Below are positions 1-29,900 of a DNA stretch of 64,000 bases, piece after piece. The stretch is taken from the NCBI RefSeq assembly GCF_014698035.1, contig NZ_JACJSF010000004.1, positions 62,001 through 126,000 of the forward strand, given 5' to 3'. The position numbers were made by a program, and so were the translations under genes. This DNA comes from Desmonostoc muscorum FACHB-395 (GTDB taxonomy: Bacteria; Cyanobacteriota; Cyanobacteriia; Cyanobacteriales; Nostocaceae). Within the stretch, counting starts at the first letter, position 1; each line of letters starts with the position of its first letter. A model generated the notes under the pieces. That model saw only the letters and a list, made by a program, of their open reading frames with translations. It was not told the DNA's origin and did no database searches.

Positions 1-2
1 GC

Positions 3-686
3 CGAGTGCGTGAGGTAGCTTTGGGTGTGTACGCTCATCAAGAAATGCCCCTGATTAAGCTAATAGAAGAACTCCAGCCAGCCAGAGACCCCAGTTACAC
101 ATTAATCAATCAAGTAATGTTTGTCTTTCAAAATACTCCAGAGGATAATTTACAATTTGCAAATCTCACTTTGAAGGAGCAGTTTATTGCTAGAGATACA
201 AAAGATACCGCAGAGTTTGATTTAGAGTTAACGCTCGAAGAGACATCAACAGGTATTGAAGGTTTGCTTGTATACAGAATCGATTTATTTGAAGCTGCCA
301 CTATTACCAAGATGGTTGATAATTTCCAAACTTTGCTGGAAAAAATAACGACCAATTATAACCAACGTCTGGCGGAACTTATCTTAATATCGGAACCTCA
401 AAGTTTGCCCCCTCAAACTGTTGTCTCCCCAACATCGAAGGATTTTGTTAGACCTCAAAATTCTATCGAAGAAGTTGTGTTAACTATCTGGAAAGAAATT
501 TTAGGGATAGAGCAAATTAGCACTCAAGACAACTTTTTTGAACTGGGAGGGCATTCTGCTCAAACTCTTGAAGTTATATGCAAACTACAGTCAGCTTTCC
601 CAGTAGAACTGCCGTTGATCTACCTGTTTGAAAAACCTACTGTATTTCAGCTAGCAGCAATCATCCAAGACCAATTAAACAGTTAA
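3..686 (+). CDS. NRPS C-terminal part: end of condensation domain plus carrier domain (5' partial)
   Basis: The reading frame is open to the left edge, so this is the 3' end of a larger nonribosomal peptide synthetase. The first ~130 codons match the end of a condensation domain (the QEMPLIKLIEELQP stretch resembles the same part of the second NRPS C domain). A peptidyl-carrier domain follows, with the phosphopantetheine motif LGGHS (Ser codon 555-557) and the downstream helix ending at the stop. There is no thioesterase, reductase or epimerase after the carrier domain, so the bound intermediate must be handed to another enzyme or released in trans. A fatty-acid desaturase starts 43 bases downstream on the same strand, which suggests an operon. 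The family call is certain; the substrate is unknown. Confidence 0.93.
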   Translation, partial: RVREVALGVYAHQEMPLIKLIEELQPARDPSYTLINQVMFVFQNTPEDNLQFANLTLKEQFIARDTKDTAEFDLELTLEETSTGIEGLLVYRIDLFEAATITKMVDNFQTLLEKITTNYNQRLAELILISEPQSLPPQTVVSPTSKDFVRPQNSIEEVVLTIWKEILGIEQISTQDNFFELGGHSAQTLEVICKLQSAFPVELPLIYLFEKPTVFQLAAIIQDQLNS

Positions 687-729
687 TAGGTTGATATCTG
701 GTTTTTCAATTGTTATTGTCAACGTAGAG

Positions 730-1755
730 ATGAACAACATGGAAATTACAAAAAATAATCAAATAATTGAGAATGCCAGACCTAGTATTAGTGAAGTTAC
801 TCAAATATCTAACGAAGAACTTCGTATATTGCATGAAATTCCTACATTTAGACCGATTGTTCAAACATTCGTTGTCATTAGTACATATTTCATCGTATCA
901 GCTATTGGGTTTTGGTTGAATAACTGGGCAGTGTGGTTATTAGTCTGGTTTGTTCAAGGATTTTTATTTGTCTGTTTTTTTGCGGCAATACATTATTGCT
1001 CTCACTATAGTTTGTATAAGTCAAAAAATACTAACCGATTCATGGGGACTTTCTTATCATTAGTATTATTGATGAACTTTTCATTTCACAAATATATTCA
1101 TATTGGACATCATAGAGAAGCAAAAATTAAAGGTAAAATCGTAGGAGATACCTCAGCATGGCAAACCTTTCCTAATATTAATACCTATCTCCTGGCCTTG
1201 ACATATTTTTATCCTCTTGCCGTATGCAAGAATTGGTGGTTAGTGACCAAAGATTTATATTTAGAATCTTTGAAAACACATACTGAAGAGGAATCAGTCT
1301 TACCAACTAGCTTTTATTTGAGCTATTTTAAAACACCAGAACAACGCCAATTTGTCTTACAAAATAATTGGCTATTATTGGGTTGGGTTTTATTAATGGC
1401 AGGATTAACCGTAATTTTCCCTCGGACTTTATTCTTTGGTTACTGGATACCATTAATAACGTTTGCTTCTCCATTCGGGTTTATTTTCAGCATTACAGAT
1501 CACTATGGCTGTGAGTCTGACTTAAACCACAACCTATGGAATGATACACGAACAATGATTTCTAACCCGATAATTAGGTTTTATTACTGGAATAATAATT
1601 ACCATGTAGAGCATCATCTCTACCCAAGTATGCCACCGTGTAACTACTCCAAGATACATGAGTTAATTCAACCTCACCTGCAATATCTGGAAAAATCATA
1701 CTTGATGTTTCATCTCAAAGTAATGCGGGGTTTGATTTCGGCAAAAAGTCATTAA
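730..1755 (+). CDS. Membrane fatty-acid desaturase family protein
   Basis: Di-iron membrane desaturase/hydroxylase (PF00487 type). All three histidine boxes are visible: HxxxH at residues 88-92, HxxHH at 124-128 and HxxHH at 292-296 (counted from the ATG at 730). Hydrophobic segments lie before the first box and around residues 205-260. A TTG at 691 would give a longer product, but the ATG at 730 is preferred because the family starts with a short polar tail. The stop overlaps the next start (TAATG). Sitting between an NRPS end and an aldo/keto reductase, it may desaturate or hydroxylate a lipid or carrier-bound acyl chain of the peptide product; that role is inferred. Confidence 0.88.
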   Translation: MNNMEITKNNQIIENARPSISEVTQISNEELRILHEIPTFRPIVQTFVVISTYFIVSAIGFWLNNWAVWLLVWFVQGFLFVCFFAAIHYCSHYSLYKSKNTNRFMGTFLSLVLLMNFSFHKYIHIGHHREAKIKGKIVGDTSAWQTFPNINTYLLALTYFYPLAVCKNWWLVTKDLYLESLKTHTEEESVLPTSFYLSYFKTPEQRQFVLQNNWLLLGWVLLMAGLTVIFPRTLFFGYWIPLITFASPFGFIFSITDHYGCESDLNHNLWNDTRTMISNPIIRFYYWNNNYHVEHHLYPSMPPCNYSKIHELIQPHLQYLEKSYLMFHLKVMRGLISAKSH

Positions 1756-2954
1756 TGAATCGCTCTTATCAAAACACATTTATGATGCAATATCGTAGAT
1801 TTGGGCGTACAGAATTACCAATGCCAGTGTTTTCTTGCGGCGGAATGCGCTACATCTATACTGAATCTGAAGAACTTACTCAAGATAAAATTCCCGATGA
1901 AAATCAACGGAATCTAGAAGCTACTATTCGCCGTTCTTTAGAAGTCGGCATCAATCACATCGAAACTGCCCGAATGTATGGGACTTCTGAGATGCAATTA
2001 GGAGCGATTTTACCTAAATTGCCTAGAGAAAAAATTATTGTGCAAACTAAGGTTGCTCCTACATCTAACTCTGGAGACTTCCGCCGTTTGTTTGAGAAAT
2101 CTTTGGCTTTATTAAAGCTAGATTACGTTGATTTATTAACACTGCATGGCATTAATTATGACCAACAATTTGAAGATAGTATTCGTCCCAATGGTTGTTT
2201 TGATGTAGCGCGACAATTGCAATCTCAGGGTAAGGTAAAGTTTATTGGTTTTTCTACCCACGCGCCAACAGACTTAATTATCAAAACCATTGAAACCAAT
2301 CAATTTGATTATGTAAATCTCCATTGGTACTACATTAATCAATTTAATTGGCCTGCTATTGAAGCCGCCACACGTCACGACATGGGGGTGTTTATCATTA
2401 GCCCATCAGACAAAGGTGGTATGCTCTATAAGCCTCCACAAAAGTTATTGGACTTGTGCTATCCACTGAGTCCGATGATGTTTAACGATCTCTTTTGTTT
2501 GAGCCATCCTCAAGTACATACTCTCAGCTTGGGCGCATCTAGACCATCAGATTTTGACGAACACTTGAAGGTTATAGAACTTTTAGATCGAGCAGATGAA
2601 ATTTTACCACCAATTTTAAACCGTTTGGAAAAAGCAGCGATCGCCACATTAGGCAAAGACTGGTACTGTAACTGGCATATAGGTTTACCCAGATATCCAG
2701 AAACCCCTGGCGAGATTAATATTCCAGTTATTTTATGGTTGCGAAATTTAGCGATCGCTTTTGATATGTGGGAATATGCCACAAGGCGCTACAACCACTT
2801 AAATAATGCCGATCCTTGGTTTCCTGGCGTGACAGCAGAACGAGTTAGACAATTCGATCTGGGCGATTGTCTGCGTCATAGTCCCTATGCTGACAAAATA
2901 CCAGCTTTATTAGAAGATGCCCATAGGTTGTTAGCTAAACCTAGTCAAGAATAA
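1755..2954 (+). CDS. Aldo/keto reductase
   Basis: NADPH-dependent aldo/keto reductase of the long (about 390-residue) cyanobacterial type. It begins with YRRFGRTELPMPVFSCGGMR and continues with the TIM-barrel signatures EVGINHIETARMYGTSE (catalytic Asp replaced by Glu, Tyr kept) and YVDLLTLHG. The C-terminal part, with conserved Trp and Cys, lies beyond the usual barrel. Its start overlaps the desaturase stop by one base; an ATG at 1797 is an alternative start close to the family's usual N terminus. Translational coupling to the desaturase suggests joint action, for example reduction of an aldehyde or ketone on the peptide or lipid part. Related genes also occur outside biosynthetic clusters, so the pathway role is not certain. 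Confidence 0.88.
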   Translation: MNRSYQNTFMMQYRRFGRTELPMPVFSCGGMRYIYTESEELTQDKIPDENQRNLEATIRRSLEVGINHIETARMYGTSEMQLGAILPKLPREKIIVQTKVAPTSNSGDFRRLFEKSLALLKLDYVDLLTLHGINYDQQFEDSIRPNGCFDVARQLQSQGKVKFIGFSTHAPTDLIIKTIETNQFDYVNLHWYYINQFNWPAIEAATRHDMGVFIISPSDKGGMLYKPPQKLLDLCYPLSPMMFNDLFCLSHPQVHTLSLGASRPSDFDEHLKVIELLDRADEILPPILNRLEKAAIATLGKDWYCNWHIGLPRYPETPGEINIPVILWLRNLAIAFDMWEYATRRYNHLNNADPWFPGVTAERVRQFDLGDCLRHSPYADKIPALLEDAHRLLAKPSQE

Positions 2955-2973
2955 ATTGCGGAGTGGTTTCACG

Positions 2974-4773
2974 ATGTCATATTATAAGTTATTAAAAAAC
3001 AATAAAAAATATACTTTAATTCGTCATCGTTGGCTAGTAATTTTGCTGGCTTTAATAACTGCGATCGCAATAATTATCTACAATCAAATTAACTTAAAAA
3101 ATCAAGCAACACCAATATCTCAAGTTATTGTCTCTTTCCCAATTGAACCCACAACTTTTAATCCAGCTTTAATAGTAGAATCAGCTTATACTTTAAACTA
3201 CACTTATGAGGGACTAGTTAAAGAAAATGGACGGGGAGAAATTGAACCTAGTCTTGCCGAATCTTGGCAAACTTCTCCAGATAAAAAACAAGTAATTTAC
3301 ACCCTCAGAAAAGGCTTAAAATGGTCAGATGGAAAACCACTAACTGCTGAAGATGTGGTTTTTACCTACAATGAAATTTATACTAATCCAGCCATTCCTA
3401 CTTATGCTAAAGACTTCTTCATAATTGGCAAAAATCGTACCTTTCCTACTGTTCGGAAACTTGATGATTTGCGAGTTGAATTTAGATTACCTGAACCATT
3501 TGCGCCATTTATCCGGGCTACAAAACTGGAAATTTTACCAGCCCATATTTTCCGAGAAAGCGTCAAAATAAAAGACCAGGAAGGCAGACCTAAATTTATG
3601 TCTACTTGGGGGATTGATACTCCACCAAAAAATATTATTGTTAACGGCCCTTATACAATAGAATCTTATACTCCCAGCCAGCGAATAATTTTCCGAAAAA
3701 ATCCTTATTACTGGCGTAAAGATGCTCAAGGCAATTCGCAACCTTATATTGAGCGTGTAATTGGGCAAATTATTCCTAGTCAAGATACTTCTTTAATCCA
3801 ATTCCGTTCTGGAGGATTGGATTACGTCAGCGTTAATACCAATTACTTTTCATTATTAAAACATGAAGAAGGGAAAGGAAAGTTTACTATCTATAATGGC
3901 GGTCTTTTTATAGGGTCAACGGCTATTACTTTTAATCTCAACAAAGGTAGTAGGAATGGTCAACCACTGGTCGATCCCATCAAGTCTCGTTGGTTTAATA
4001 CAGTGGAATTTAGACAAGCAATTGCCTATGTAATTAATCGCCAACAAATACTTAACAATATCTATAAGGGATTGGGTCAACTGCAAAATTCACCGATTGC
4101 TGTACAGAGCAAGTATTATTTACCCGTCCAAGCAGGTTTAAAGGTCTATGAATACAATCTTCAAAAAGCGAAAGAATTACTGCTCAAAGCAGGTTTTAAA
4201 TACAACAACCAAGGTCAGTTATTAGACGAGCAAGAAAATCTTGTCCGCTTTAGCCTCATGACGAATGCTAACAATAATATATTGCAGGCAATGGGAGTAC
4301 TCATAAAACAAAATTTGAGTGATCTTGGCATAACTGTTGATTTCAATCCTGTAGCTACTAGTATTTTTATCAACAAACTAACTCAAACTTTCGATTGGGA
4401 GTGTCAAGTGCTTGAAGTTGCTGTCGGTCAAGAACCGAATGATTGGGCTAATGTTTGGTTGCCTGAAACTGGTTGGCACTTTTTTAATCAAAAATCCCAA
4501 GCAGGGCAAACGCCGATAACGGGGCGACAGGTAGCAGATTGGGAACAGAAAATAGGTGATTTATACATTCAAGCAGCCTCTGAGGTGGATGAAGCAAAGC
4601 GTAAAGCTATCTATGCAGAAACCCAACAAATTACTCAGGAGTATCTGCCATTTATTTATCTAGTTAACCCTTTATCAATGGTGGCAGTACGAAATCGTAT
4701 CCAGGGTATTCAACACTCTGCCCTCATAGGAACATTTTGGAACTCCTACGACCTGAAACTGACTGAAGATTAG
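2974..4773 (+). CDS. Membrane-anchored peptide ABC transporter substrate-binding protein (family 5)
   Basis: Extracytoplasmic solute-binding protein of the OppA/DppA family (SBP_bac_5). The N terminus has a positively charged stretch and one hydrophobic segment (about residues 20-40), which acts as an uncleaved signal anchor or signal peptide; no lipobox cysteine is visible. The mature part shows family landmarks: the FNPAL region, LAESWQTSPD, the LRKGLKWSDGKPLTAEDVVF motif and the lobe-closing VEFRQAIAYVINRQQI. The ATG at 2974 is chosen over an upstream TTG because a purine-rich GGAG-like site precedes it. No oppB/C/D/F genes are nearby, so it is an orphan binding protein inside the NRPS cluster, perhaps binding the exported peptide. 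Confidence 0.88.
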   Translation: MSYYKLLKNNKKYTLIRHRWLVILLALITAIAIIIYNQINLKNQATPISQVIVSFPIEPTTFNPALIVESAYTLNYTYEGLVKENGRGEIEPSLAESWQTSPDKKQVIYTLRKGLKWSDGKPLTAEDVVFTYNEIYTNPAIPTYAKDFFIIGKNRTFPTVRKLDDLRVEFRLPEPFAPFIRATKLEILPAHIFRESVKIKDQEGRPKFMSTWGIDTPPKNIIVNGPYTIESYTPSQRIIFRKNPYYWRKDAQGNSQPYIERVIGQIIPSQDTSLIQFRSGGLDYVSVNTNYFSLLKHEEGKGKFTIYNGGLFIGSTAITFNLNKGSRNGQPLVDPIKSRWFNTVEFRQAIAYVINRQQILNNIYKGLGQLQNSPIAVQSKYYLPVQAGLKVYEYNLQKAKELLLKAGFKYNNQGQLLDEQENLVRFSLMTNANNNILQAMGVLIKQNLSDLGITVDFNPVATSIFINKLTQTFDWECQVLEVAVGQEPNDWANVWLPETGWHFFNQKSQAGQTPITGRQVADWEQKIGDLYIQAASEVDEAKRKAIYAETQQITQEYLPFIYLVNPLSMVAVRNRIQGIQHSALIGTFWNSYDLKLTED

Positions 4774-4793
4774 CTAAAGAGGATATCGTTTGT

Positions 4794-5723
4794 ATGCAAA
4801 TTCCTATTATTGACTTCAATCCTTTTATTAATGGTGACACAGTTGCAAAAGAAGCTGTCGCTACACAAATTTCTCTTGCTATTCATGAGGTCGGATGTTT
4901 CTACCTCAAAAATTATGGTATTTCTAAGACTCTAATTACTCAAGTCTTTTCACAAGCCGAGTGCTTTTTTGCACTACCGGAGAATGAAAAAGAACAAGTA
5001 TCTTTCTTTCCAGATCGTAATCTTCGCGGATATCATAATTTTAAAAAGAGTGAAGATAATCACAACGCTAATGAACTAATGACTGAAGGCTTTCATTTTG
5101 GTAAAGAAATTTCTCTAGATGAAGTTGGTATTATCGAAGATCCTTTTTTTGAACCGAATAAATGGCCTCATCAGACTAATTTTCGTGAAATGATGATGGA
5201 GTTTTTCACGGCTTGTCATGAAAGCGCTTTGAGAGTATTCCAAGCTTTGGCTATTTCCCTAAAATTGCCAGAAGACTACTTTACAAATTTATATTCAGAG
5301 CAAAATCACGGTATAGTTTGGCATCATTACCCATCTATATATCAGCCTCCAGAACTTGGAAAAGTTTATCTGGCAGAACATACCGACATAGGTACTCTCA
5401 CATTTTTATTTCAAGATTCAGAAGGATTAGAAGTATATACAAATTCTGGAGAATGGGTTTTAGCGCCCTTCATTCCTGATGCAATTATTGTATTGGTTGC
5501 AGATTTAATGCAGCGATGGACGAACGATAAGTTTTGTGCCACACGACATCGAGTTGTAGTTCCAACTCAATCTCACAGTGCTAAACAAAGATACTCATGT
5601 GCCTTTTTTACAGGCCCCAATTACGATACTTCAATTAACTCCATTCAGACTTGCTTAGATATAGATGAAGTGCCTAAGTATCCACCAATTCTTGCCCATG
5701 AATATTTCAAGCAACCCAAATGA
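4794..5723 (+). CDS. 2-oxoglutarate/Fe(II) oxygenase (isopenicillin N synthase-like)
   Basis: Non-haem iron dioxygenase of the IPNS/flavonol synthase type. The N-terminal DIOX_N region starts with QIPIIDFNPF. The iron facial triad is visible as H196-x-D198 (in EHTDIGTLTFL) and H252 (in RHRVV). The 2-oxoglutarate carboxylate-binding pair is R266-x-S268 (RYS). At 309 residues it has a normal length. An AGAGGA-like ribosome-binding site precedes the ATG. Such enzymes hydroxylate, desaturate or cyclise amino acids or peptides, and the position in an NRPS cluster points to tailoring of a residue. A primary-metabolic oxygenase cannot be excluded. Confidence 0.9.
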   Translation: MQIPIIDFNPFINGDTVAKEAVATQISLAIHEVGCFYLKNYGISKTLITQVFSQAECFFALPENEKEQVSFFPDRNLRGYHNFKKSEDNHNANELMTEGFHFGKEISLDEVGIIEDPFFEPNKWPHQTNFREMMMEFFTACHESALRVFQALAISLKLPEDYFTNLYSEQNHGIVWHHYPSIYQPPELGKVYLAEHTDIGTLTFLFQDSEGLEVYTNSGEWVLAPFIPDAIIVLVADLMQRWTNDKFCATRHRVVVPTQSHSAKQRYSCAFFTGPNYDTSINSIQTCLDIDEVPKYPPILAHEYFKQPK

Positions 5724-5746
5724 TAGCCACGGATTAGAGATAATAA

Positions 5747-7390
5747 ATGGACAAATTACAATTGCTAGCAAAGTCAAAACCTCCAACATGGTTAAAAATT
5801 TTGGTAATTAGCCTGATGGGGTTAGGTATTTTCTTTCGCTTCACCCATTTGGGGCAAAAAGTATATTGGTATGACGAATTTGCGACATCACTGGCAATAT
5901 CTGGTCATACGCTAGCTGAGGTTAAACAAGAGGTTTTTAGAAATTGGAGCAATGATGGAGGCGTAATTCCTATTATTACTTTAGACAAATATCAACACAT
6001 TAACCCAGATCGAACTGTGGCTGATACAGTTCGCTACTTAATAACTTCAGACCCACAACATCCACCTTTGTATTATGTAATGGTGAGATTATGGGCGCAA
6101 GTCTTTGGAGATTTCCCTGCGGCAGTTAGGAGTTTATCAGCAGTAATTAGTCTGTTGGTGTTTCCTAGTGTGTATTGGCTGTGTTTAGAGTTGTTTGAGT
6201 CTTCACTAGTTGGGTGGGTGGGAATGGCTGTAATGGCGGTTTCTCCCTTACAGATTTTCTTCGCCCAAGATGCACGAGAATACGGTTTATGGATGGTGAC
6301 GATTCTAGTATCAAGTGCTGCTTTATTGCGAGCCATTCGCCAAGAAAGTTCCTTGAGTTGGGCTGTGTATGCTCTCACCCTAGCCTTGGGATTCTACACC
6401 CATTTATTAACGGCAATGGTTGCGATCGCTCATTTCATATATGTGGTTATTAGGCAACAATTTCGCTTCAACAAAACTCTGCGTAATTATTTACTGAGTT
6501 CCATAGTAGCTTCCTTGATGTTTTTACCTTGGCTAATGGTAATCATTACCCAGATTCATACAGCAACAAATCTCTTGTCATGGATCGCATTTAAAACAGA
6601 TAGTCATTTCGACCTAATTGGGATTTGGCTCAGTCGGATTAGCAGAATATTTTTTGATTTTAATTTGGCTTCTGATGATGCTTGGGTCAATAATTTACCT
6701 GCGGAAAGCCCTTTATCTTATAGTATTCCTACGATAATAGCTAGCTTATTTTTAATTATTTATATAATCATTTTTTTTATAAAATATCTCTCAACGAACG
6801 CTAGTTTATTTATTGCTTTATTAGGCGGATTTCCAGGGTTAACATTGCTTTTCTACGATCTAATTTTTGGGGGAATTCGCTCTATTCATTTTCGCTATCA
6901 GTTACCGTTATACCTCAGCATTCAAATTGCTGTAGTGTATATTTTATCTTTCCATCTTTTATTGGCAAAGAACTGGCAGAAAAACCTTTGGCAAGTCATT
7001 ATGGTAGGGTTACTCATCTCTGGGCTAGTTTCTGATGTCAGATTTTTTCAGTCTGAAACTTGGTGGCCACAAATAGGTGCTAAGAATTTGCTAGCAATGA
7101 GTCAACTTATTAATCAATCTAATAATAATATTTTATTGGTAAGTAGCAAAAATGATTATAACTTGGGAGTTATTCTCACCTTAAGTCATAATTTAGAGCC
7201 AAAAGTTCGCTTACTTACCATACAAAATGACCAGTTACCAATAATGATTCAAGACTATAAATCTATCTTCTTTGTTGACGACCTTGAAAATAGTTTAGCC
7301 CATCAACTTCAGCAGGATAAAACTAATTCCCTGAAATTAATCTACCCACTTGAAGGATTTTGGCAACTCGACAAAAATCAGAAAACGTGA
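5747..7390 (+). CDS. GT-C family membrane glycosyltransferase (PMT_2/ArnT-like)
   Basis: Polytopic inner-membrane protein of 547 residues with about 10-12 hydrophobic segments. The first extracytoplasmic loop contains the acidic pair D43-E44 (VYWYDEFATS), typical of GT-C transferases that use polyprenyl-phosphate sugars. A second conserved region, AQDAREYGLW, occurs near residue 178. This architecture matches the dolichyl-phosphate-mannose/ArnT superfamily (PF13231). The soluble C-terminal tail is short. It is followed by a GtrA-like gene, and the pair is typical of lipid-linked sugar transfer outside the membrane. It may glycosylate the peptide or a cell-surface lipid; the acceptor is unknown. 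Confidence 0.85.
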   Translation: MDKLQLLAKSKPPTWLKILVISLMGLGIFFRFTHLGQKVYWYDEFATSLAISGHTLAEVKQEVFRNWSNDGGVIPIITLDKYQHINPDRTVADTVRYLITSDPQHPPLYYVMVRLWAQVFGDFPAAVRSLSAVISLLVFPSVYWLCLELFESSLVGWVGMAVMAVSPLQIFFAQDAREYGLWMVTILVSSAALLRAIRQESSLSWAVYALTLALGFYTHLLTAMVAIAHFIYVVIRQQFRFNKTLRNYLLSSIVASLMFLPWLMVIITQIHTATNLLSWIAFKTDSHFDLIGIWLSRISRIFFDFNLASDDAWVNNLPAESPLSYSIPTIIASLFLIIYIIIFFIKYLSTNASLFIALLGGFPGLTLLFYDLIFGGIRSIHFRYQLPLYLSIQIAVVYILSFHLLLAKNWQKNLWQVIMVGLLISGLVSDVRFFQSETWWPQIGAKNLLAMSQLINQSNNNILLVSSKNDYNLGVILTLSHNLEPKVRLLTIQNDQLPIMIQDYKSIFFVDDLENSLAHQLQQDKTNSLKLIYPLEGFWQLDKNQKT

Positions 7391-7444
7391 AGATTACTGA
7401 TTGTAGCAGTCTCAAATAAAAAACATTAATAGAGTAGAAACTGA

Positions 7445-7939
7445 ATGAAGCAATATCTTGAATATTTTAATATTATTTTTCTGATAGATAAAATCTACTT
7501 TTATCTTCATTCGGCGCTTTTTAGTCGGTTTATTCGCTTTGCTGTAGTTGGTTTGAGTGGAGTATTTGTAGACTTGGGGGCATTCTATTTTTTACATAGC
7601 TCATTATGTTTGGCGTTAACTATGAGTGCAATGCTTTCCACAGAAATAGCAATTATTAATAATTTTCTGTGGAATGATTTATGGACGTTTGGTGATGTGT
7701 CTTTTCAGCAAAAAATCAGTCAAAAGTTAGAACGTTTCGTCAAGTTTAATCTCATTTGTTTGGTTGGGCTTATTTTCAATAGTCTAATTGTAAATTGGCT
7801 ATTTTATCAATTCCAAGTGAATGAATACATAGCTAAATTAGTAGCGATCGCTTGTGTAACACTTTGGAATTTCTGGCTCAACCTGAAGATGAACTGGCAA
7901 TTAACAAAGACAGAAGTAGATGTAGTTGTAGATATTTAA
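7445..7939 (+). CDS. GtrA-like membrane protein
   Basis: Small four-helix membrane protein of the GtrA family (PF04138), 164 residues. The typical first segment FIRFAVVGLSGVFVDLGAFYFL, the charged loop NNFLWNDLWTFGD and a last helix ending in WNFWLNLKMNW are visible. GtrA proteins are thought to flip undecaprenyl-phosphate-linked monosaccharides across the membrane. It lies 54 bases after the GT-C glycosyltransferase, and the two plausibly act together: GtrA presents a lipid-linked sugar and the GT-C enzyme transfers it. Confidence 0.85.
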   Translation: MKQYLEYFNIIFLIDKIYFYLHSALFSRFIRFAVVGLSGVFVDLGAFYFLHSSLCLALTMSAMLSTEIAIINNFLWNDLWTFGDVSFQQKISQKLERFVKFNLICLVGLIFNSLIVNWLFYQFQVNEYIAKLVAIACVTLWNFWLNLKMNWQLTKTEVDVVVDI

Positions 7940-7948
7940 GAAAAAATC

Positions 7949-9085: not shown

Positions 9086-9130
9086 ATACCCAGTCACTAT
9101 TACCTAATCACTAATTAAATATAAATAAAT

Positions 9131-10666: not shown

Positions 10667-10711
10667 TGTTTGATTATTCTTTTACTGTCAAAAGAGTAGT
10701 TAATTTTTAAC

Positions 10712-10740
10712 GAACCACAGAGGCACAGAGAACACAGAGG
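10712..10740 (+). repeat. Short CACAGAG-type repeat upstream of the second NRPS
   Basis: The spacer between the MBOAT and NRPS genes contains the imperfect direct repeat CACAGAGG / CACAGAGA / CACAGAGG. This resembles a dispersed low-complexity repeat common in filamentous cyanobacteria. No promoter elements could be assigned with confidence. Confidence 0.5.
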
Positions 10741-10775
10741 AAGAGAGAAGATAGGTAGTTTATTAATTACGAATT

Positions 10776-13700
10776 ATGAGCAAGCTGCAAATAATTAAAA
10801 ATAAAAATATTGAATCTATTTATCCTCTTTCTCCTATGCAGCAGGGTATGCTTTTTCATACTTTGTATGAGCCAGAATCAGGGGTGTATCTTGAGCAGTT
10901 CTGTCTAACGCTCTCTGGAAATCTAGATATTACAGTGCTTCAGCAGGCCTGTGTGCGAGTAATGAAGCGTCACCCAGTTCTGCGTACCCTTGTGGTTTGG
11001 GAAAAACAAGAAAAGCCTCTCCAGGTAGTATGTAAACAAGTGGAGTTGCCTTGGCAGAACTATGATTGGCGTTCCTTATCTTTAGCAGAACAAGAAGAGC
11101 ATTTAAAAGCTTTCTTACAAGCAGATCGAGTTCAAGGCTTCGTTCTTGACAAAGCTCCACTTATGCGATTTAGCTTAATTCAAATCGCTGATGATATTTA
11201 CGAATTTGTCTGGAGCTTTCATCACCTGCTGATTGATGGTTGGAGTTGGCCAATTCTCTGCAAAGAAGTCTTTGCTTTTTACAATGCTTTAGTTAAAGGC
11301 AAATATTTATATTTAAATACCCCTCGTCCTTACCGATATTACATCAATTGGTTACAGCAACAAGATTTAAGAGCAGCAGAAATATTTTGGCGGCAACAAC
11401 TTCAAGGTTTTACTAACCCTACCCGTTTGCAACTAAATCAGGATGAGGTACAACATTTTCCCCAGTCAAAAACTTACTACGATCAGCAGTGCTGTTTATC
11501 GGCAACTATAACTGCTGCTTTACAATCCCAGGCACAGCAGTATCATCTGACACTTTCAACTTTCGTCCAAGCTGCTTGGGCACTTTTACTTAGTCGCTAC
11601 ACTGATGAGTCTGAGGTAGTGTTTGGAGCAACTGTGTCCGGTCGTCCTCCCACTTTATCGGGGGTGGAATCTATGGTGGGACTATTCATTAATACTTTAC
11701 CAGTCAGGGTGAAAGTACCAACAGCAACTCCTTTATGGCAATGGCTGAGGGAATTGCAGGCTCAACAGGTAGAGCGATCGCAATATTCTTGGTTTCCATT
11801 AGTAGAAATTCAAGCTCTTAGTGAAATTCCCCAAGAATTACCCCTGTTTGAAAGCATCGTGGTGTTTGAGAACTACCCACAAGATCCGTCTTTATCAAAT
11901 CTAGGTAGCACCATCCAGATTACCAAACGGCGAGTCATTGAACAAACCAATTATCCGCTCACAGTCATCGCTGTACCAGGACAAGAATTATCCCTACGCA
12001 TTCTTTATGATGGTAGCCGCTTTGATAACGAAACAATTAACCGGATGATGGGACATCTTGTAACTTTGTTAGAGGGTATGGTTACAAATGTCGAGCAGAC
12101 AGTAGGAGAGATACCCATGCTAACTGCTGCTGAACAGTACCAATTAGTCGAGTGGAATGACACCCAAACAGATTATCCCAATAAATGTATCGCTCAGTTG
12201 TTTGAAGAACAGGTGGAACGGACACCGGATGCAGTAGCAGTTTCGTTTCAATCCCAACACCTGACTTACCAGCAGTTAAATTGTCAGGCTAACAAGTTAG
12301 CGCACCATCTACAAAAACTTGGGGTAAAACCAGAAGTGCGGGTAGGGATTTGCGTAGAGCGTTCTTTATCGATGGTAGTAGGACTTTTGGCAATCCTCAA
12401 AGCTGGTGGTGCTTACGTACCTTTAGATCCGCGATCGCCCCAAGAACGCTTAACTTATATGTTGAGTGATTCTCAAGCGTCGATGTTGCTGACAGATTCA
12501 TCAATTACTTTATCTGAGCAACCATTAACAGTAGTTTGCTTAGATACATCGGATTTCTGCCAAAACAGTCAGGAAAATCCTGTTAATGGAGTGATACCAG
12601 GGAACTTGGCTTATGTCATGTATACTTCTGGCTCAACCGACAAACCCAAAGGTGTAGCCATGAGTCACCGTTCTCTGGTGAATCTTTTATATTGGCAAAT
12701 GGACGAAAGTTCTTTAAGTTGTGCTAAAACTTTGCAATTTGCTTCCATCAGTTTCGATGTCTCTTTTCAAGAAATCTTCTCTACCTGGTGTAACGGCGGA
12801 ACCTTAGTTTTAATCACCGAAAAACTACAAAAAGATGGGTTCGCATTATTACAGTTAATTGCCCAAGAAAAGGTGGAAAGACTGTTTTTGCCCTTTGTCG
12901 CCCTTCAGCAATTAGCCCATGCTGCCTCTATTACTCAATTATATCCTGCATCTTTGCGTCAGATTATGACGGCAGGAGAACAGCTACATATTACCCCTGT
13001 TTTAGTCAACTTTTTTAAGGAGCTTTCTGGTTGTACGCTACAAAATCAGTATGGGCCGACGGAGAGCCATGTGGTAACAAGTTTTACCTTAAAAGATGTG
13101 GTAAGCAGTTGGTCGCCACTTCCGCCTATTGGTCGGGCGATCGCAAATACGCAAATCTACATCCTTGACCGCCATCTGCAACCATTACCAATTGGAGTTC
13201 CTGGAGAACTGTATATCGGCGGTGTTGCGATCGCTAGAAGTTATATTAATTCCCCGGAATTGACGGCTGAGAAATTCATTGTGAAGGATGGGAATCGTTT
13301 GTATAAGACAGGCGATCGCGCTCGATATTTATCTGATGGCAACATCGAATTTCTCGGTCGAATTGACAATCAAGTGAAGGTGCGGGGTTTTCGCATTGAA
13401 CTGGGAGAAATTGAAACCGTACTCGCCGCACACCCCCAGGTAAAAGAAGCAGTAGTTATCGCCAGAGAAGATGAACCAGGAAACAAGCGTCTAGTCGCCT
13501 ACATTGTCCCCAAACAACACTTAGACACCAGCGAACTGCTTTGTTACCTCAAACAAAAGTTACCCGAATATATGCTACCTTCTGCTTTTGTAAAGTTGCT
13601 GGATGCTCTACCTCTAACCCCCAGTGGTAAAATAGAGCGCCGCGCTTTACCAGCACCTTTGAGTCGGGAAACACGGAACATCTCTACAGACTTGATTCCA

Positions 13701-15419
13701 CCCCGTACTGTTACTGAAGAGGTTCTGGCAGGAATCTGGAGCGATGTTTTAGGACTAGAAAAAGTTGGTATCCATGACAACTTCTTTGCATTAGGAGGGC
13801 ATTCCCTATCAGCAATGCAAGTCATTGCTCGGTTGCGAGAAACTTTCAAAATAGAGTTACCTATAAGCTGTCTGTTTGATTACCCGACAGTAGTTGAGCT
13901 AAATCGGCAAATTTCAGAATACCGCCAAAAAGAGGCAGGGGAGCAGGGGAGCAGGGGAGCAGGGGAGCGGGGGAGCAGGGGAGAAATAATCATTCTTTCT
14001 CATCCCCCTCTGCCCTCTTGTAAAAATGACTTGACCCCATCTCTTAAACCAGTACCTCGAAATACAAAAGAGTTGCCAATTTCTTTGACTCAGCTTGAGT
14101 TTTGGATATTAGCTCAATTGCATCCGGGTATTCCCGTCTATAATATTCCACTGGCTTATCGCTTGACGGGTTTACTCAACGTCACTGCTTTAGCACAAAG
14201 CCTCGTGGAAATTGTCCGTCGTCACGAAGCTTTGCGAACTACTTTTGCGATCGCAGATAAGCAAGTAGTTCAGAAAATTGCTCAACAGCCCATATTGCCA
14301 TTTTCGGTGGTAGATTTGCGAAAACTTTCTGAATCTAAAACTGAGCGAAAGGCTCTGGCTCAAAAATTTATCACTGAGGAAAAAAACCAGCCTTTTGATC
14401 TAGAACAAGAACCTTTGTTACGCATCAAGCTACTGCGGCTCTCTGATGCCGAGCATTTACTAATAATAACTATCCATCATCTGGTTTGTGATGGTTGGTC
14501 TGTGGGTGTGTTTTTACAGGAGCTAACAAAATTATACGCAGCATTTTGTCATGGTCAGCCTTCACCGCTTCCTGATTTACCCATCCAATATGCTGACTTT
14601 GCCCATTGGCAACAGCAGTGGGTTGCTCGTCCTGCTTTTGTGTCTGACCTTAACTACTGGAAGCAGCAACTAGGCAATAGCAAACTTTTACTACAGTTAC
14701 CTACTGACCGTCCGCGTTTACCAGTACGAACTTTTGAGGGTGCAAGTCAAACTTTCATCATCCCTAAGAGCCTAACAAATGCTCTTAAACATCTGAGCCA
14801 ACAGCACAATGTAACTCTATTCGTGACTCTGTTAACAGCCTTTAAAATAGTGCTATTTTATTACACCGGGCAGTCAGATATTATTGTGGGCACTCCCTTT
14901 GCCAATCGCCAACAAGTGGAAACTAAAGGACTTATTGGATGCTTCATTAACACATTACCAATACGTACACATTTGGGAGGCGATCCAAGTCTGAGAGAGT
15001 TGCTGTATCAGGTGCGTGGCTCTTTCTTAGCAGCCTCCGATCAACAACAAATTCCCTTCGTAAAGTTAGTAGAAGCACTACAGCCAAAACTAGAACCAAG
15101 CCATTCTTTGCTATATCAAGTGATGTTTAACTTCTTGCCTCCATCAGATTTAAAACTGGCAAATTTGACTGTTCATCCCTGGTCAGTTGAAAGTCAAACA
15201 GCAGAATTTGATTGGGATATTTATCTTCAACAAACAACATTAGGAAGTATTGAAGGGAAATGGTGCTACAAAATCGATTTGTTTGATGCTACTACTATTA
15301 GTCGTGCGATAACTCAGTTTCTAGTGTTGCTTGAGTTGCTAATTACTAATCCAGAATGTCGTCTGACTGACCTTTCCTTACTATTTCAGCGCCATAATTC
15401 TCAATGCCGTGCAATGTAG
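10776..15419 (+). CDS. Nonribosomal peptide synthetase, C-A-PCP-C
   Basis: A 1547-residue NRPS. Domains in order: condensation (about 12-440; HHxxxDG at H149-D154), adenylation (about 455-960; TSGST P-loop near 617, YGPTE, the A7-A8 block, catalytic Lys of SGK near 952), carrier protein (about 975-1045; LGGHS with Ser1010), a repeat-rich linker (about 1053-1070), then a second condensation domain (about 1085-1540; HHxxxDG at H1234-D1239). It ends just after this C domain with no carrier or thioesterase. The residues I read at the Stachelhaus positions are D-V-Q-F-M-A-Q-V-V plus the invariant Lys, closest to proline-type codes, so proline or a methyl- or hydroxyproline is a weak prediction. 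The terminal C domain may accept another carrier in trans (compare the C-PCP protein at the left edge) or act in release. Confidence 0.95.
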   Translation: MSKLQIIKNKNIESIYPLSPMQQGMLFHTLYEPESGVYLEQFCLTLSGNLDITVLQQACVRVMKRHPVLRTLVVWEKQEKPLQVVCKQVELPWQNYDWRSLSLAEQEEHLKAFLQADRVQGFVLDKAPLMRFSLIQIADDIYEFVWSFHHLLIDGWSWPILCKEVFAFYNALVKGKYLYLNTPRPYRYYINWLQQQDLRAAEIFWRQQLQGFTNPTRLQLNQDEVQHFPQSKTYYDQQCCLSATITAALQSQAQQYHLTLSTFVQAAWALLLSRYTDESEVVFGATVSGRPPTLSGVESMVGLFINTLPVRVKVPTATPLWQWLRELQAQQVERSQYSWFPLVEIQALSEIPQELPLFESIVVFENYPQDPSLSNLGSTIQITKRRVIEQTNYPLTVIAVPGQELSLRILYDGSRFDNETINRMMGHLVTLLEGMVTNVEQTVGEIPMLTAAEQYQLVEWNDTQTDYPNKCIAQLFEEQVERTPDAVAVSFQSQHLTYQQLNCQANKLAHHLQKLGVKPEVRVGICVERSLSMVVGLLAILKAGGAYVPLDPRSPQERLTYMLSDSQASMLLTDSSITLSEQPLTVVCLDTSDFCQNSQENPVNGVIPGNLAYVMYTSGSTDKPKGVAMSHRSLVNLLYWQMDESSLSCAKTLQFASISFDVSFQEIFSTWCNGGTLVLITEKLQKDGFALLQLIAQEKVERLFLPFVALQQLAHAASITQLYPASLRQIMTAGEQLHITPVLVNFFKELSGCTLQNQYGPTESHVVTSFTLKDVVSSWSPLPPIGRAIANTQIYILDRHLQPLPIGVPGELYIGGVAIARSYINSPELTAEKFIVKDGNRLYKTGDRARYLSDGNIEFLGRIDNQVKVRGFRIELGEIETVLAAHPQVKEAVVIAREDEPGNKRLVAYIVPKQHLDTSELLCYLKQKLPEYMLPSAFVKLLDALPLTPSGKIERRALPAPLSRETRNISTDLIPPRTVTEEVLAGIWSDVLGLEKVGIHDNFFALGGHSLSAMQVIARLRETFKIELPISCLFDYPTVVELNRQISEYRQKEAGEQGSRGAGERGSRGEIIILSHPPLPSCKNDLTPSLKPVPRNTKELPISLTQLEFWILAQLHPGIPVYNIPLAYRLTGLLNVTALAQSLVEIVRRHEALRTTFAIADKQVVQKIAQQPILPFSVVDLRKLSESKTERKALAQKFITEEKNQPFDLEQEPLLRIKLLRLSDAEHLLIITIHHLVCDGWSVGVFLQELTKLYAAFCHGQPSPLPDLPIQYADFAHWQQQWVARPAFVSDLNYWKQQLGNSKLLLQLPTDRPRLPVRTFEGASQTFIIPKSLTNALKHLSQQHNVTLFVTLLTAFKIVLFYYTGQSDIIVGTPFANRQQVETKGLIGCFINTLPIRTHLGGDPSLRELLYQVRGSFLAASDQQQIPFVKLVEALQPKLEPSHSLLYQVMFNFLPPSDLKLANLTVHPWSVESQTAEFDWDIYLQQTTLGSIEGKWCYKIDLFDATTISRAITQFLVLLELLITNPECRLTDLSLLFQRHNSQCRAM
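13935..13982 (+). repeat. Intragenic 8-bp tandem repeat in NRPS linker
   Basis: About six copies of GCAGGGGA (one with GCGGGGGA) run in tandem within the coding sequence, between the carrier and second condensation domains. Because the unit is 8 bp, the peptide cycles through three frames and yields a Gly/Ser/Arg/Glu-rich flexible linker. Copy-number change by a single unit would break the frame. Confidence 0.9.
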
Positions 15420-15428
15420 GTACATATA

Positions 15429-15590
15429 AGAGGTTGTTTGAAAAGTGTTTCGCTGTGACTTTAGGCACTTTTAGATCCCCCCTAGCCCTTAAAAAGGGAG
15501 GAACCGGAATCAAAGTCCCCCTTTTTAAGGGGGATTTAGGGGGATCTAAAACTTTTGATATCGGCAATAGAACTTTTCAAACATCCTCTA
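15429..15590. mobile_element. MITE family 1, copy A
   Basis: A non-coding element of about 162 bp with terminal inverted repeats: 5' AGAGGTTGTTTGAAAAGT and 3' ACTTTTCAAACATCCTCT (one mismatch). The interior holds two C-rich/G-rich inverted stretches around TTTTTAAGGGGGATTTAGGG that can fold into long hairpins. It lies just after the NRPS stop. A small frame through it is a repeat artefact. Related copies are at 29583-30002 and 34823-34960, with a fragment near 42417. Confidence 0.85.
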
Positions 15591-15657
15591 AGAGCAGGGA
15601 GCAGGGAGAACAAAACAAGAATAGGTGTAATTAATTCTGTTTAGGTACTTAACTTAT

Positions 15658-17049
15658 ATGTCAGACATACAGATTATGGAAAAAACAAGACTGACTATTT
15701 TACGGGAAATGCGGCTGTTTATCATTGTTTGGGTAGGACAATTGATCGCCTTGATTGGTTCGAGTACCACTGCCTTTGCCTTAGATATCTGGGTTTATAA
15801 TCGCACCGGTTCAGTTACCCAGTTTGCTTTAGTCTCTCTGTTCAATACTCTCCCGCTAATCTTAATTTCCCCGATCGCTGGGCCTCTGGTAGATAAGTGG
15901 GATCGCCGAAAGACAATGATTATCGCTGATGTCTTGGCGTGTTTGGGAACGATCGCGATCGGCGTTTTATTTGTCATCGGTCGGTTAGAAGTCTGGCACA
16001 TTTACCTAGCCAATACCTTCACTGCTGTTTTCATGGCTTTTCACACACCTGCTTATACAGCATCAACAGTCTTACTAGTGCCGAAACAGCACCTTAATCG
16101 TGCCAATGGGCTAATGAGTCTGATGTTTGGTATTTCCCTAATCATTGCACCAACTCTCGGAGGCGTTTTACTAACCATTGTGCATTTGCAAGGGATTATT
16201 TTGTTTCACGTAACGGCTATATTTATTGCTGTTGTTTCCCTGATGCTGGTTCGGTTCCCGGAAGTCAACACAAGTGCTGTTGCAACTGTAAAAAGTTCAT
16301 TCCTAAGTGAAGCAACTTACGGATTGACATATTTGATCGCTCGACCAGGACTGCTGGGACTAGTATTATTCTCAGCTTCCAGCTTTTATATTGTGGGAGG
16401 TATTAATGTCATCACTATCCCGCTAGTCTTAAATTTCGTTTCAGTAAGCTTTCTGGGAACTATTCTTTCGCTATTTGGCATTGCGATCGTAGCAGGTGGC
16501 TTGCTTGTCAGCATCTGGGGAGGGCTAGAACGCAACATATATGCCATATACGGGTGTATGCTTTTGAGTGGCGTATTTATTTTCGTCGCCGGTTTGCAAC
16601 CCTCTCTTGTCATTTTCACTGTTGGTATCTTCTTATTTTTCCTAACACAACCGATCGTTTCCAGTTCCACGCAAGCTGTCATGCAAAATAAAGTAGAACC
16701 TAATGTACAAGGTAGAGTTTTTGCGATCAAAGGAGCGATTGAAGCAGCCGCTTTCCCTTTAGGCTACATCACGATTGGGCCTTTAGCCGAGAAAGTTTTT
16801 GAACCCTTAATGGCTACTAACGGTTTTTTAGCAGGAAGCATCGGACAAATCATCGGTGTTGGGTCAGGTCGTGGGATGGGACTTCTACTGATGATTATGG
16901 GAGTCTTGACCATTTTAGAAACCTCTATTGCCTACTTGTACCCTCGCTTACGGTTTGTGGAAGATGAACTGCCTAATGTTAGTAATGCAGTTGCAATGGC
17001 TGCTGATACAGCTTCTAGTAAGAATGACGCAGTTTCTTTGATATCCTAA
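15658..17049 (+). CDS. MFS exporter (DHA3/EntS-like)
   Basis: Major facilitator superfamily transporter of 463 residues with about 12 hydrophobic helices. The loop after helix 2 carries the MFS motif A variant GPLVDKWDRRKTMII (about residues 75-90), and the N terminus resembles EntS and macrolide-efflux proteins (FIIVWVGQLIALIGSSTTAFALDIWVY). It lies directly downstream of the NRPS on the same strand, a usual place for a siderophore or peptide exporter. Likely role: proton-driven export of the cluster product or resistance to it. Confidence 0.9.
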   Translation: MSDIQIMEKTRLTILREMRLFIIVWVGQLIALIGSSTTAFALDIWVYNRTGSVTQFALVSLFNTLPLILISPIAGPLVDKWDRRKTMIIADVLACLGTIAIGVLFVIGRLEVWHIYLANTFTAVFMAFHTPAYTASTVLLVPKQHLNRANGLMSLMFGISLIIAPTLGGVLLTIVHLQGIILFHVTAIFIAVVSLMLVRFPEVNTSAVATVKSSFLSEATYGLTYLIARPGLLGLVLFSASSFYIVGGINVITIPLVLNFVSVSFLGTILSLFGIAIVAGGLLVSIWGGLERNIYAIYGCMLLSGVFIFVAGLQPSLVIFTVGIFLFFLTQPIVSSSTQAVMQNKVEPNVQGRVFAIKGAIEAAAFPLGYITIGPLAEKVFEPLMATNGFLAGSIGQIIGVGSGRGMGLLLMIMGVLTILETSIAYLYPRLRFVEDELPNVSNAVAMAADTASSKNDAVSLIS

Positions 17050-17278
17050 ATTTGGCGTTGCATAGTGGTGGTTGATTAAAAACTCTACTAATTTGCAATT
17101 ATTATTTTATTTTCGGAATTTTCGATTTTTGAAAATTGGTCATTGTTAACTTAGTCTATAAATCGGAAAAATTTTGTATCTAGATTCAACATTTCTACTC
17201 TAGATTAAATCCTGTGTTTTTTCATCAGTTAGTATTTTTTTATTTCAATCAAAAAAGATGTTCAACTTATTTTAGAAT

Positions 17279-19291
17279 ATGCAAACCAAAGTTTCTCGCG
17301 GTCAATCCTTAAAGAATGATCCTTCTCCTCCGGCCTCTAATAATTTTTGGGAGAATGTAAGAGCGATCGTTCAGCCTTACTGGTACCCAACAGAGTCAGG
17401 GGAAAGAGTATTTCCAGACGTGATTCGGATATGGGGGATGCTGATTCTCCTGATTTTATTAATAATAGCGCTAGTCGGGGTAACTGCCTTTAATAGCTTC
17501 GTTACTCGCTATATAACCGATGTCATTGAAGAGAAAGATTATCCTAACTTTATTAATACGATAGTAGTTTTCGGCGCTGCTCTTGTCTGCATAACACTCT
17601 TAAACGGATTTTCTAAACTTGTCAGAAAAAAAATCGCTCTTGATTGGTACAAATGGTTAAATAATCACATATTATCAAAATATTTGAGCAATCGTTCCTA
17701 TTATAAAATTAACTTTAGAGCTGATGTTGATAACCCAGATCAACGAATATCCCAAGAAATCGAACCCATTACCAGTAATGCTCTGAGTTTTTCAGCTACT
17801 TTCCTAGAAAAAGTGCTGGAAATGATTACTTTTTTAGTAATTCTTTGGTCAATTTCCCAATTTATTGCAATTGTTTTGGTTGTTTATACAATCGTAGGCA
17901 ACTTGATTGCTATTTACTTAGGTCAACAATTAAATAAAATTAATCAAGAAGAATTAGAACTGAAAGCAGAATACAGTTATTCTCTGACTCATGTTCGTAA
18001 TCACGCTGAATCGATAGCTTTTTTTCAGGGAGAAAAGCAAGAATTTAATATAATTCAACGAAGATTTATTAATCTCCTGAAAAATGTCGAACGCAAGATT
18101 AATTGGGAGAACAATCAAGAACTTTTTGACGGAGCATATAAGTCTGCTATCCAAATATTCCCATATCTGGTACTCGCACCTTTATATATGAGCGGTCAAG
18201 CTGATTTCGGAGAAGTTGTCCAAGCCAGTGTAGCTTGTAATCAGTTTGCCTCGGCTATGGCAACATTAATTAGAGAATTTGGGACTTCTGGACGATTTTC
18301 CAGTTATGTTGAGCGTTTATCTGAGTTTTCAGATGCATTAGAAGCAGTTACCAAACAACCAGAGAATGTCAGTACTATTAAAACAATAGAAGAAAACCGT
18401 TTAGCTTTCGAGAATGTCACCTTACAAACGCCAAACTATGAACAGGTAATCGTTGAAAATTTATCACTTTCTGTTCAACCAGGAGAAGGCTTATTGATTG
18501 TTGGGCCGAGTGGACGAGGTAAAAGTTCTCTGTTGAGAGCGATCGCAGGTTTGTGGAATGCGGGAACGGGTCGCTTGGTACGACCTCCCTTAAAAGAAGT
18601 ATTATTCTTACCCCAACGGCCTTATATCATTTTAGGGACTTTGCGCGAACAGTTACTTTATCCTAATACGAATCGTCAAATGACCGACGCAGAACTCAAA
18701 GACGTTTTGCAACAAGTAAACTTGCAAAACTTACTAAGTCGAGTTGAAGGCTTTGACACTGAAGTTCCTTGGGAAAATATATTATCGATAGGAGAACAAC
18801 AACGTCTTGCTTTCGCACGACTGTTAGTTACTCATCCGAGCTTTACTATATTGGATGAAGCAACAAGTGCTTTAGATTTGAAAAATGAAGGAAGTTTATA
18901 TCAACAGTTACAATCAACGAAAACAACATTTATTAGTGTTGGGCACCGGGAAAGCCTGTTTGATTACCATCAATGGGTTTTAGAACTTGCACAAGATTCC
19001 AGTTGGCAACTTGTAACTGTCCAGGATTATCGAAATCAAAAAGCAAGTATAACTAAATTTCCGTCAAATACTCAAATCAAAATAAATGATTCGCCTGAAG
19101 ACAAAGCGCAAAATGAGTCAAAAATCAGCACAAGCGAAAAACTTACTCATAAGGCAATGAATGAATTAACATCCTATTCACTTAGCACTATTAGAAGCAA
19201 GGCAAGCAAAGGAGAATTTATCACTACTAAGGACGGCATTATTTATCGCTATGATAAAGATCCCAATGTTTTGAAATGGGTTTTAGTTTAG
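17279..19291 (+). CDS. ABC exporter, fused permease-ATPase (ABC_membrane_2/SbmA-like permease)
   Basis: A 670-residue half-transporter. The N-terminal membrane part (about 50-330) resembles the ABC_membrane_2/SbmA-BacA group more than the MsbA group, with the NFRADVDNPDQRISQEIEP region typical of it. The nucleotide-binding domain has Walker A GPSGRGKSS (about residue 415), signature LSIGEQQRLAFAR and Walker B FTILDEATSALD. A polar tail of about 80 residues ends with DGIIYRYDKDPNVLKWVLV, an addition beyond the standard domain. The gene follows the MFS exporter after a 229-base AT-rich spacer, which may hold its own promoter. Probable exporter for the peptide product. Confidence 0.9.
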   Translation: MQTKVSRGQSLKNDPSPPASNNFWENVRAIVQPYWYPTESGERVFPDVIRIWGMLILLILLIIALVGVTAFNSFVTRYITDVIEEKDYPNFINTIVVFGAALVCITLLNGFSKLVRKKIALDWYKWLNNHILSKYLSNRSYYKINFRADVDNPDQRISQEIEPITSNALSFSATFLEKVLEMITFLVILWSISQFIAIVLVVYTIVGNLIAIYLGQQLNKINQEELELKAEYSYSLTHVRNHAESIAFFQGEKQEFNIIQRRFINLLKNVERKINWENNQELFDGAYKSAIQIFPYLVLAPLYMSGQADFGEVVQASVACNQFASAMATLIREFGTSGRFSSYVERLSEFSDALEAVTKQPENVSTIKTIEENRLAFENVTLQTPNYEQVIVENLSLSVQPGEGLLIVGPSGRGKSSLLRAIAGLWNAGTGRLVRPPLKEVLFLPQRPYIILGTLREQLLYPNTNRQMTDAELKDVLQQVNLQNLLSRVEGFDTEVPWENILSIGEQQRLAFARLLVTHPSFTILDEATSALDLKNEGSLYQQLQSTKTTFISVGHRESLFDYHQWVLELAQDSSWQLVTVQDYRNQKASITKFPSNTQIKINDSPEDKAQNESKISTSEKLTHKAMNELTSYSLSTIRSKASKGEFITTKDGIIYRYDKDPNVLKWVLV

Positions 19292-28176: not shown

Positions 28177-28299
28177 AACTATCTCAGGTCAACCACTAGT
28201 AGTTCGCTTTCGTGACTTGGCGGGGTAAAGGGTAAGGGGGAAGGGGGAAAGGGTTTAAATCCCTTACCCTTTCCCCTTTCCCCTTTCCCCAGTCCTCAC

Positions 28300-28938: not shown

Positions 28939-29009
28939 AATTGCTTCTAAAATTATTTTGTGATTGCCTCTCTTTCAACTTAGATAAAGAATCTGAGTAA
29001 CTTGTGAAG

Positions 29010-29555: not shown

Positions 29556-29653
29556 TTTATTTTTTAAATGAATTTTGACCTTAGAGGTTGTTTGAAAAGC
29601 ATTTCGCTGTGACTTTAGACACTTTTAGATCCCCCCTAACCCCCCTTAAAAAA

Positions 29654-29855: not shown

Positions 29856-29900
29856 CTTAAAAAAGGGGGAACCGGAGTCAAAGTCCCCCTTTTTAAGGGG

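Follow-up and report, generated by a model that had tools for sequence, protein, structure and literature searches.

Aeruginosins are a known class of trypsin-blocking peptides. AerB, AerG, AerD, AerE, and AerF are reported as common to all 103 aeruginosin clusters of one survey (PMC8609519). For aeruginosin 865, a cluster has been published from Nostoc UIC 10630 (May et al. 2020, via PMC10143770), for which aerA, B, D, E, F, G, and N are named in a review along with glycoside-modifying and acyltransferase genes; the product carries a sugar and a hexanoyl group on dihydroxy-Choi (Choi, 2-carboxy-6-hydroxyoctahydroindole), plus agmatine. Related systems are the suomilide clusters suo (Nodularia sphaerocarpa) and bsl (Nostoc KVJ20), the aeruginoside 126 and Planktothrix clusters with their single AerG (PMC10744761), and the spumigin and pseudoaeruginosin synthetases of Nodularia, which place a proline-type residue at position 3 and occur in separate or combined clusters (PMC10744761, PMC3765200). 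Here, we analyzed a window of 64,000 nucleotides from Desmonostoc muscorum FACHB-395 (bases 62001 to 126000 of contig 195, C195; genome 9.43 Mb), reading it together with 15.6 kb retrieved from its left flank. With a probability of roughly 85%, the window holds the downstream part of an aeruginosin-865-type cluster, a cluster type already known, and this cluster includes a second nonribosomal peptide synthetase (NRPS), here called NRPSx, that is a paralog of AerG.

The whole cluster spans C195:46363-81291 (34.9 kb), of which 19.3 kb (positions 1 to 19291) lie inside the window, and comprises 17 genes (Table 1), the NRPS and AerD/E/F-like genes of the left flank standing on the same strand (+) as those of the window. 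A first-pass annotation of the window had described an NRPS cluster with tailoring genes for a sugar and an acyl group, which is borne out, and every gene that it named is present. Its view of the cluster as apparently undescribed and without a known product did not survive the leftward extension that it had itself proposed, which supplied the AerA/B/D/E/F-like genes and the start of AerG. Gene content, domain order, and adenylation (A) domain codes could be observed directly: all five genes common to the family are present, as are A-KR-PCP loading, a Leu module, an AerG with a second condensation (C) domain, and the glycosyl- and acyltransferase genes of the 865 type. No FkbH match indicative of suomilide-type loading was found in AerB (TubC dock-C-A-PCP-E), AerA being present instead, nor was the C-terminal reductase domain of AerM-type release found. 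The AerB code is DAWFLGNVV, which reads as Leu. The AerG code is DVHFICFLV, a pattern followed by the other AerG A domains compared, with distant ones differing at single positions.

Using AerD as the query, relatives were found at 22 loci, and the stretches around the clusters were then retrieved. The nearest clusters were those of Nostoc UCD121, the Peltigera cyanobiont 210A, Nostoc CCCryo 231-06, Nostoc NOS, CHAB 5836, Dendronalium CENA369, two Brasilonema, and genomes G404 and G494; across seven Nostoc relatives, identity was 91-100% for AerD, 81-98% for AerE, and 93-99% for AerF. Synteny is gene for gene with Dendronalium phyllosphericum CENA369, which has orthologs of all 17 genes in identical order at 63-88% identity. 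By liquid chromatography-tandem mass spectrometry (LC-MS/MS), Nostoc sp. CENA369, which we infer from the strain number to be the same strain, is reported to make compounds 6 and 7 (PMC4483662, Table 2), that is, 4-hydroxyphenyllactic acid (Hpla)-Leu-(hexose, hexanoyl)-OHChoi-agmatine and its uronic-acid form, aeruginosin 865 (compound 7); both are also made by four Brasilonema strains, none of them the sequenced ones (PMC4483662). Given this synteny, the LC-MS/MS products of CENA369, and the Leu-type AerB code, we regard aeruginosin 865 or a close congener as the most likely product. What had been taken for an unknown cluster thus falls into a named product class whose masses can be searched for.

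The proposed pathway takes product structures, free-amine release, and the roles of AerA/B/D/E/F from the literature. AerA would load an aryl-pyruvate and then reduce it, AerB would add and epimerize Leu, and Choi would be made by AerD/E/F together with the aldo/keto reductase (AKR). AerG would then add Choi, and its second C domain would free the chain onto free agmatine, so that no thioesterase or reductase would be needed; the absence of a thioesterase, MbtH, and release reductase, already noted for the window, holds across the whole cluster, left flank included. For related clusters, a published proposal has this domain join the chain to a free amine, aeruginoside 126 being one such case (PMC13122637), and we judge the earlier suggestion of a C domain as the release catalyst to be likely. 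Its HHxxxDG motif is kept in the 28 clusters having that domain (30 rows, two genomes being repeated). Decay of the terminal PCP of AerG was considered as support for free-agmatine release and dropped, the PCP serine being conserved in all 28 clusters.

The individual tailoring steps, and a site outside the membrane, are inferred. The 2-oxoglutarate (2OG) oxygenase is a candidate Choi 5-hydroxylase, 5-OH-Choi being present in reported products. The peptide would then be decorated at the membrane, where the sugar would be added at Choi 6-O by the candidate glycosyltransferase GT-C with the GtrA-like protein, a candidate lipid-sugar flippase or GT-C partner. The MBOAT protein is a candidate enzyme for the hexanoyl ester, its counterpart in suomilide clusters having been assigned to hexanoyl transfer in print, and would act with the SGNH protein as its likely partner. 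An O-acylating MBOAT/SGNH pair, also suggested earlier, is judged likely: the MBOAT gene is accompanied by an SGNH gene in 22/22 clusters, and the SGNH fold with its catalytic Ser and Asp-x-x-His is present, although the likeness to DltD is weak (E 0.006, with a structure model of moderate confidence), no Pfam match and a weak NCBIfam match were obtained, and a PDB sequence search gave nothing meaningful. The anchored solute-binding protein (SBP), also present in suomilide-type clusters, may bind and hold the peptide outside the membrane. Finally, the hexose would perhaps be turned into a uronic acid by the desaturase-like protein Des.

Several points weigh against this identification. The window's own strain has, to our knowledge, no known product, and the close match to a characterized cluster, which the first-pass annotation had set as the condition for its own refutation, largely holds, the published cluster of Nostoc UIC 10630 being likened by description and not by sequence. 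Conservation is lowest in AerA (63% to CENA369 over residues 185-1429), whose A domain has fatty-acyl-AMP ligases as its nearest NCBIfam match; therefore, the starter could differ from Hpla. AerA can nevertheless be aligned along its length to its counterparts in distant aeruginosin clusters (53-56%). The prephenate-dehydratase Pfam match of AerD falls below the cut-off, and the role of Des is a guess by elimination, Des being the only oxidase left after the other steps were assigned. In addition, the terminal PCP serine is conserved in 28/28 further clusters with a second C domain in AerG, so that this PCP probably serves a purpose which release onto free agmatine leaves unexplained. That the cluster makes a different, non-aeruginosin glycolipopeptide would fit the uncertain AerA starter and the scarcity of GT-C and GtrA homologs among the other aeruginosin clusters examined, but the complete AerA/B/D/E/F/G set and the gene-for-gene synteny with CENA369 make this extremely unlikely.

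The other described systems share parts of this gene set. The suomilide clusters have homologs of AerB/D/E/F/G, SBP, SGNH, and MBOAT but differ in their glycerate (FkbH) loading, as given in the papers, and in having no AerA match, four 2OG homologs in most cases, and a short-chain dehydrogenase/reductase (SDR), SDR2, instead of the AKR; no GT-C/GtrA match and no NRPSx ortholog were found in the stretches retrieved. Aeruginoside 126/Planktothrix clusters are described as sharing AerA, AerB, AerD-F, AerG, and an AKR (PMC10744761), and genome G148, which has this layout (AKR 75%), differs from the window in having no GT-C/GtrA/MBOAT/SGNH and no NRPSx ortholog. For aeruginosin 865 itself, the sugar, hexanoyl group, and agmatine are as predicted here; a second AerG-like NRPS, Des, and an SGNH partner are not mentioned in the review accounts (PMC10143770, PMC10744761), although the original paper may do so.

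NRPSx aligns with AerG end to end at 50% identity (residues 8-1536), only the last PCP being missing; by domain, identity is 57% for C1, 47% for A, 61% for PCP, and 50% for C2. In a tree of 282 C domains, taken from the retrieved clusters and 120 listed NRPSx matches (12 of them NRPSx orthologs), NRPSx C1 was sister to 16 AerG C1 domains (support 0.982) and NRPSx C2 to 14 AerG C2 domains (support 1.0), with no outsider in either group. A 246-domain tree grouped C1 and C2 likewise, as did a 79-domain tree, except that there NRPSx C1 was nested among the AerG C1 domains. Raw identity does not set AerG C2 apart, some other C domains being at least as similar to NRPSx C2; the kinship of C2 therefore depends on the trees and on how they were sampled. 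The A domain has a different affinity: its code is DVQFMAQVV, and the best 25 other matches among the 120 listed are 61-64% identical to it (AerG, 48%) and all read DVQFIA[HQ][VI][VI], one to three residues from the NRPSx code. The pocket stretch finds its best PDB matches in gramicidin S synthase 2 (GrsB) and tyrocidine synthase 2 (TycB), the matched modules of which are presumably Pro modules. NRPSx would thus consist of AerG-type input and output domains around a proline-type A domain. At least 12 orthologs occur among the 120 matches listed, with lengths of 1511-1568 aa, the identical code DVQFMAQVV, and 92-98% identity over residues 640-1060; the nine with a named source are all Nostoc. 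A plasmid search with NRPSx returned a best identity of 49.7%, reflecting only general NRPS likeness. NRPSx also occurs in G361 and CHAB 5836, in which no sugar/acyl cassette was found, and so seems tied to the backbone.

The simplest reading of these domain relationships is that NRPSx is a competing third module, with predicted release without a last PCP. We tentatively propose, at slightly less than even odds, a forked line in which the chain from AerA and AerB would pass to AerG (Choi) or else to NRPSx (proline or a close analogue), both releasing onto agmatine via sister C domains, so that one operon would make the decorated aeruginosin and an undecorated, spumigin-like Hpla-D-Leu-Pro-agmatine (C25H40N6O5; computed [M+H]+ 505.313). 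Compared with the spumigin and pseudoaeruginosin systems, whose residue at position 3 is of the type predicted for NRPSx, a single line would here feed two third modules. Alternatively, NRPSx could act in series after AerG, adding proline before release and making the main product longer than a normal aeruginosin. Its location downstream of AerG on the same strand, its own C-A-PCP-C, and an AerG terminal PCP that could hand on a chain fit such an order, and the first-pass annotation had likewise placed the second NRPS at the end of a single line. A parallel AerG copy is, however, favored by the trees, in which C1 is sister to the very domain that takes the AerB product and C2 to AerG C2, without outsiders. 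CENA369 has NRPSx, yet both its reported aeruginosins end in Choi-agmatine (PMC4483662). In both sequenced Brasilonema, NRPSx is reduced to a remnant (read directly in CT11), while other Brasilonema strains are reported to make the compounds. Action in series is therefore unlikely.

A further possibility is that NRPSx is an AerG duplicate on its way out, without a product. The Brasilonema remnant would fit this, as would the missing C2 region in the CCCryo 231-06 match and the lack of a detected ortholog in Iningainema; dN/dS against the two nearest orthologs is 0.27 and 0.26, compared with 0.15 and 0.15 for AerG, and neither a proline product nor a proline analogue was found in the aeruginosin literature searched. 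Against more distant orthologs, however, dN/dS is 0.14 and 0.13, as in AerG (0.15 and 0.13), no internal stops occur in the four orthologs compared, and the length range and uniform code of the listed orthologs speak for a maintained gene. (A Brasilonema row labeled NRPSx, with dN 0.40, was left out, the match belonging to another NRPS gene.) NRPSx appears from these values to be under purifying selection, and we consider decay rather unlikely. No description of NRPSx was found in the literature searched, the primary aeruginosin 865 paper and all supplements aside. If true, the forked line would be a natural assembly line that branches by way of an AerG copy carrying a different adenylation domain, with a bearing on the relationship between aeruginosins and spumigins and on NRPS engineering.

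Two gene swaps mark the related clusters, although these are related by descent and the counts are therefore not independent. Among 14 AKR-bearing clusters, 7/14 have Des and neither an adenosine 5'-phosphosulfate (APS) kinase nor a sulfotransferase-like open reading frame (ORF): the window's own, UCD121, NOS (the MBOAT-NRPSx gap judged from contig positions), the two Brasilonema, Dendronalium, and G494. The APS kinase and sulfotransferase-like ORF occur without Des in five (Peltigera, CCCryo, G404, G361, and CHAB 5836), and two have neither (Iningainema, seen in part, and G148). The switch occurs within one species, G404 belonging to the same species as the window: there, an APS kinase occupies the Des slot (L068 7908-8886), and a sulfotransferase-like ORF lies between MBOAT and NRPSx (L067 18365-18959), the window having neither. 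The latter label is putative, resting on a start that looks like a P-loop by eye and on the presence of an APS kinase in the same cluster; the ORF gave no Pfam match above the cut-off and no meaningful PDB match. Relatives of Des are few (6 entries at E <= 1e-20 among 939 candidates in a word-based search), and no PDB match was found by sequence. One idea is that the product gains a negative charge in either of two ways, by Des or by the APS kinase/sulfotransferase-like pair; a description of this swap was likewise not found, within the same literature scope as for NRPSx. Des as an arginine hydroxylase for 1-amidino-3-(2-aminoethyl)-3-pyrroline (Aaep) was rejected, the GntB match being weak (31.7 bits; CrtR, 45.8) and a 2026 paper assigning Aaep to other enzymes.

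The second swap concerns the AKR: in 39 clusters, 14 have only the AKR, 24 only SDR2, one neither (G288), and none both. Clusters split over two contigs were counted once, as were G016 and G253, which are one genome, and 21% AerF-like matches in the window's own and G404 rows were not scored as SDR2, since SDR2 queries find nothing there. An AKR is also encoded by Planktothrix ORF8, proposed as a release enzyme (PMC10744761). Release by the AKR is not favored here, as suomilide-type clusters have the AerG second C domain and no AKR; with SDR2 and a full AerG both present in them, AKR and SDR2 are better explained by a late step of Choi formation common to the two, possibly a reduction of Choi. 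Both swap patterns give testable roles to genes left open or assigned otherwise in the literature searched. Elsewhere in the genome, a second AKR-like stretch (G000:C168:13238-14279; 70% identical DNA) has a thioesterase match some 1 kb away, at 11956-12273.

Table 1. Genes of the cluster; plain numbers are window positions, and C195 marks contig coordinates.
Feature	Location	Strand	Remarks
AerA-like NRPS, A-KR-PCP	C195:46363-50652	+	1429 aa; Pfam AMP-binding/KR/PCP
AerB-like NRPS, C-A-PCP-E	C195:50653-55464	+	1603 aa; Pfam TubC dock/C/A/PCP; second Condensation match is the E domain (TIGR01720)
AerD-like	between AerB and AerG, left flank	+	198 aa; prephenate-dehydratase match as in text
Cupin	between AerB and AerG, left flank	+	232 aa; among AerD/E/F-like Choi genes
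SDR	between AerB and AerG, left flank	+	264 aa; among AerD/E/F-like Choi genes
AerG-like NRPS, C-A-PCP-C-PCP	C195:57812-62686	+	1624 aa; start 4188 bp left of window
AerG 3' end	3..686	+	final 227 codons; last part of the second C domain plus the last PCP; listed as a C-PCP end in the first-pass annotation
Des, membrane di-iron desaturase/hydroxylase-like	691..1755	+	three His boxes
AKR	1755..2954	+	
SBP, family 5	2956..4773	+	one N-terminal hydrophobic stretch
2OG/Fe(II) oxygenase	4794..5723	+	
GT-C (PMT_2) glycosyltransferase	5747..7390	+	polytopic
GtrA-like membrane protein	7445..7939	+	
SGNH protein	7949..9085	+	N-anchored; predicted fold weakly DltD-like
MBOAT O-acyltransferase	9131..10666	+	
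NRPSx, AerG paralog, C-A-PCP-C	10776..15419	+	predicted proline-type A domain; no terminal PCP
MFS exporter	15658..17049	+	
AerN-like ABC exporter	17279..19291	+	ABC_membrane_2 type

Some variation among the relatives was also observed. The AerB A domains of CCCryo, G361, and CHAB 5836 (L036-L037, L069, L104) have a pocket different from the Leu type of the window, starting with DAF and containing FVTTALF and FGGEA stretches, which resembles the Ile code DAFFLGVTFK quoted in PMC13122637. Genome G295 (L081-L082) has AerB/D/E/F-like genes, an SBP, a GT-C, and two SDR2 genes, with no AerG in the 40 kb retrieved, and a plasmid of Cylindrospermum sp. NIES-4074 (L032) carries AerB, AerD-G, SDR2, GT-C, and GtrA homologs.

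Beyond the cluster, the window contains genes for a [NiFe]-hydrogenase large subunit, a small-subunit-like protein, and an iron-sulfur (HoxU-like) protein at 26728-31301 (-), probably a bidirectional hydrogenase operon, and a 164-aa ORF at 22522-23016 may be a hydrogenase protease (by eye; no Pfam match at 1e-8). A psbA-like photosystem II D1 protein gene, read by eye, lies at 23618-24688 (+), and an ABC transporter set with a HlyD-type adaptor and a double ATPase, accompanied by two permease-like ORFs (by eye), at 33692-39526 (-). At 55345-58656 (-), a 1103-aa SNF2-type helicase matches DpdE of the Dpd DNA-modification defense system (807.9 bits).

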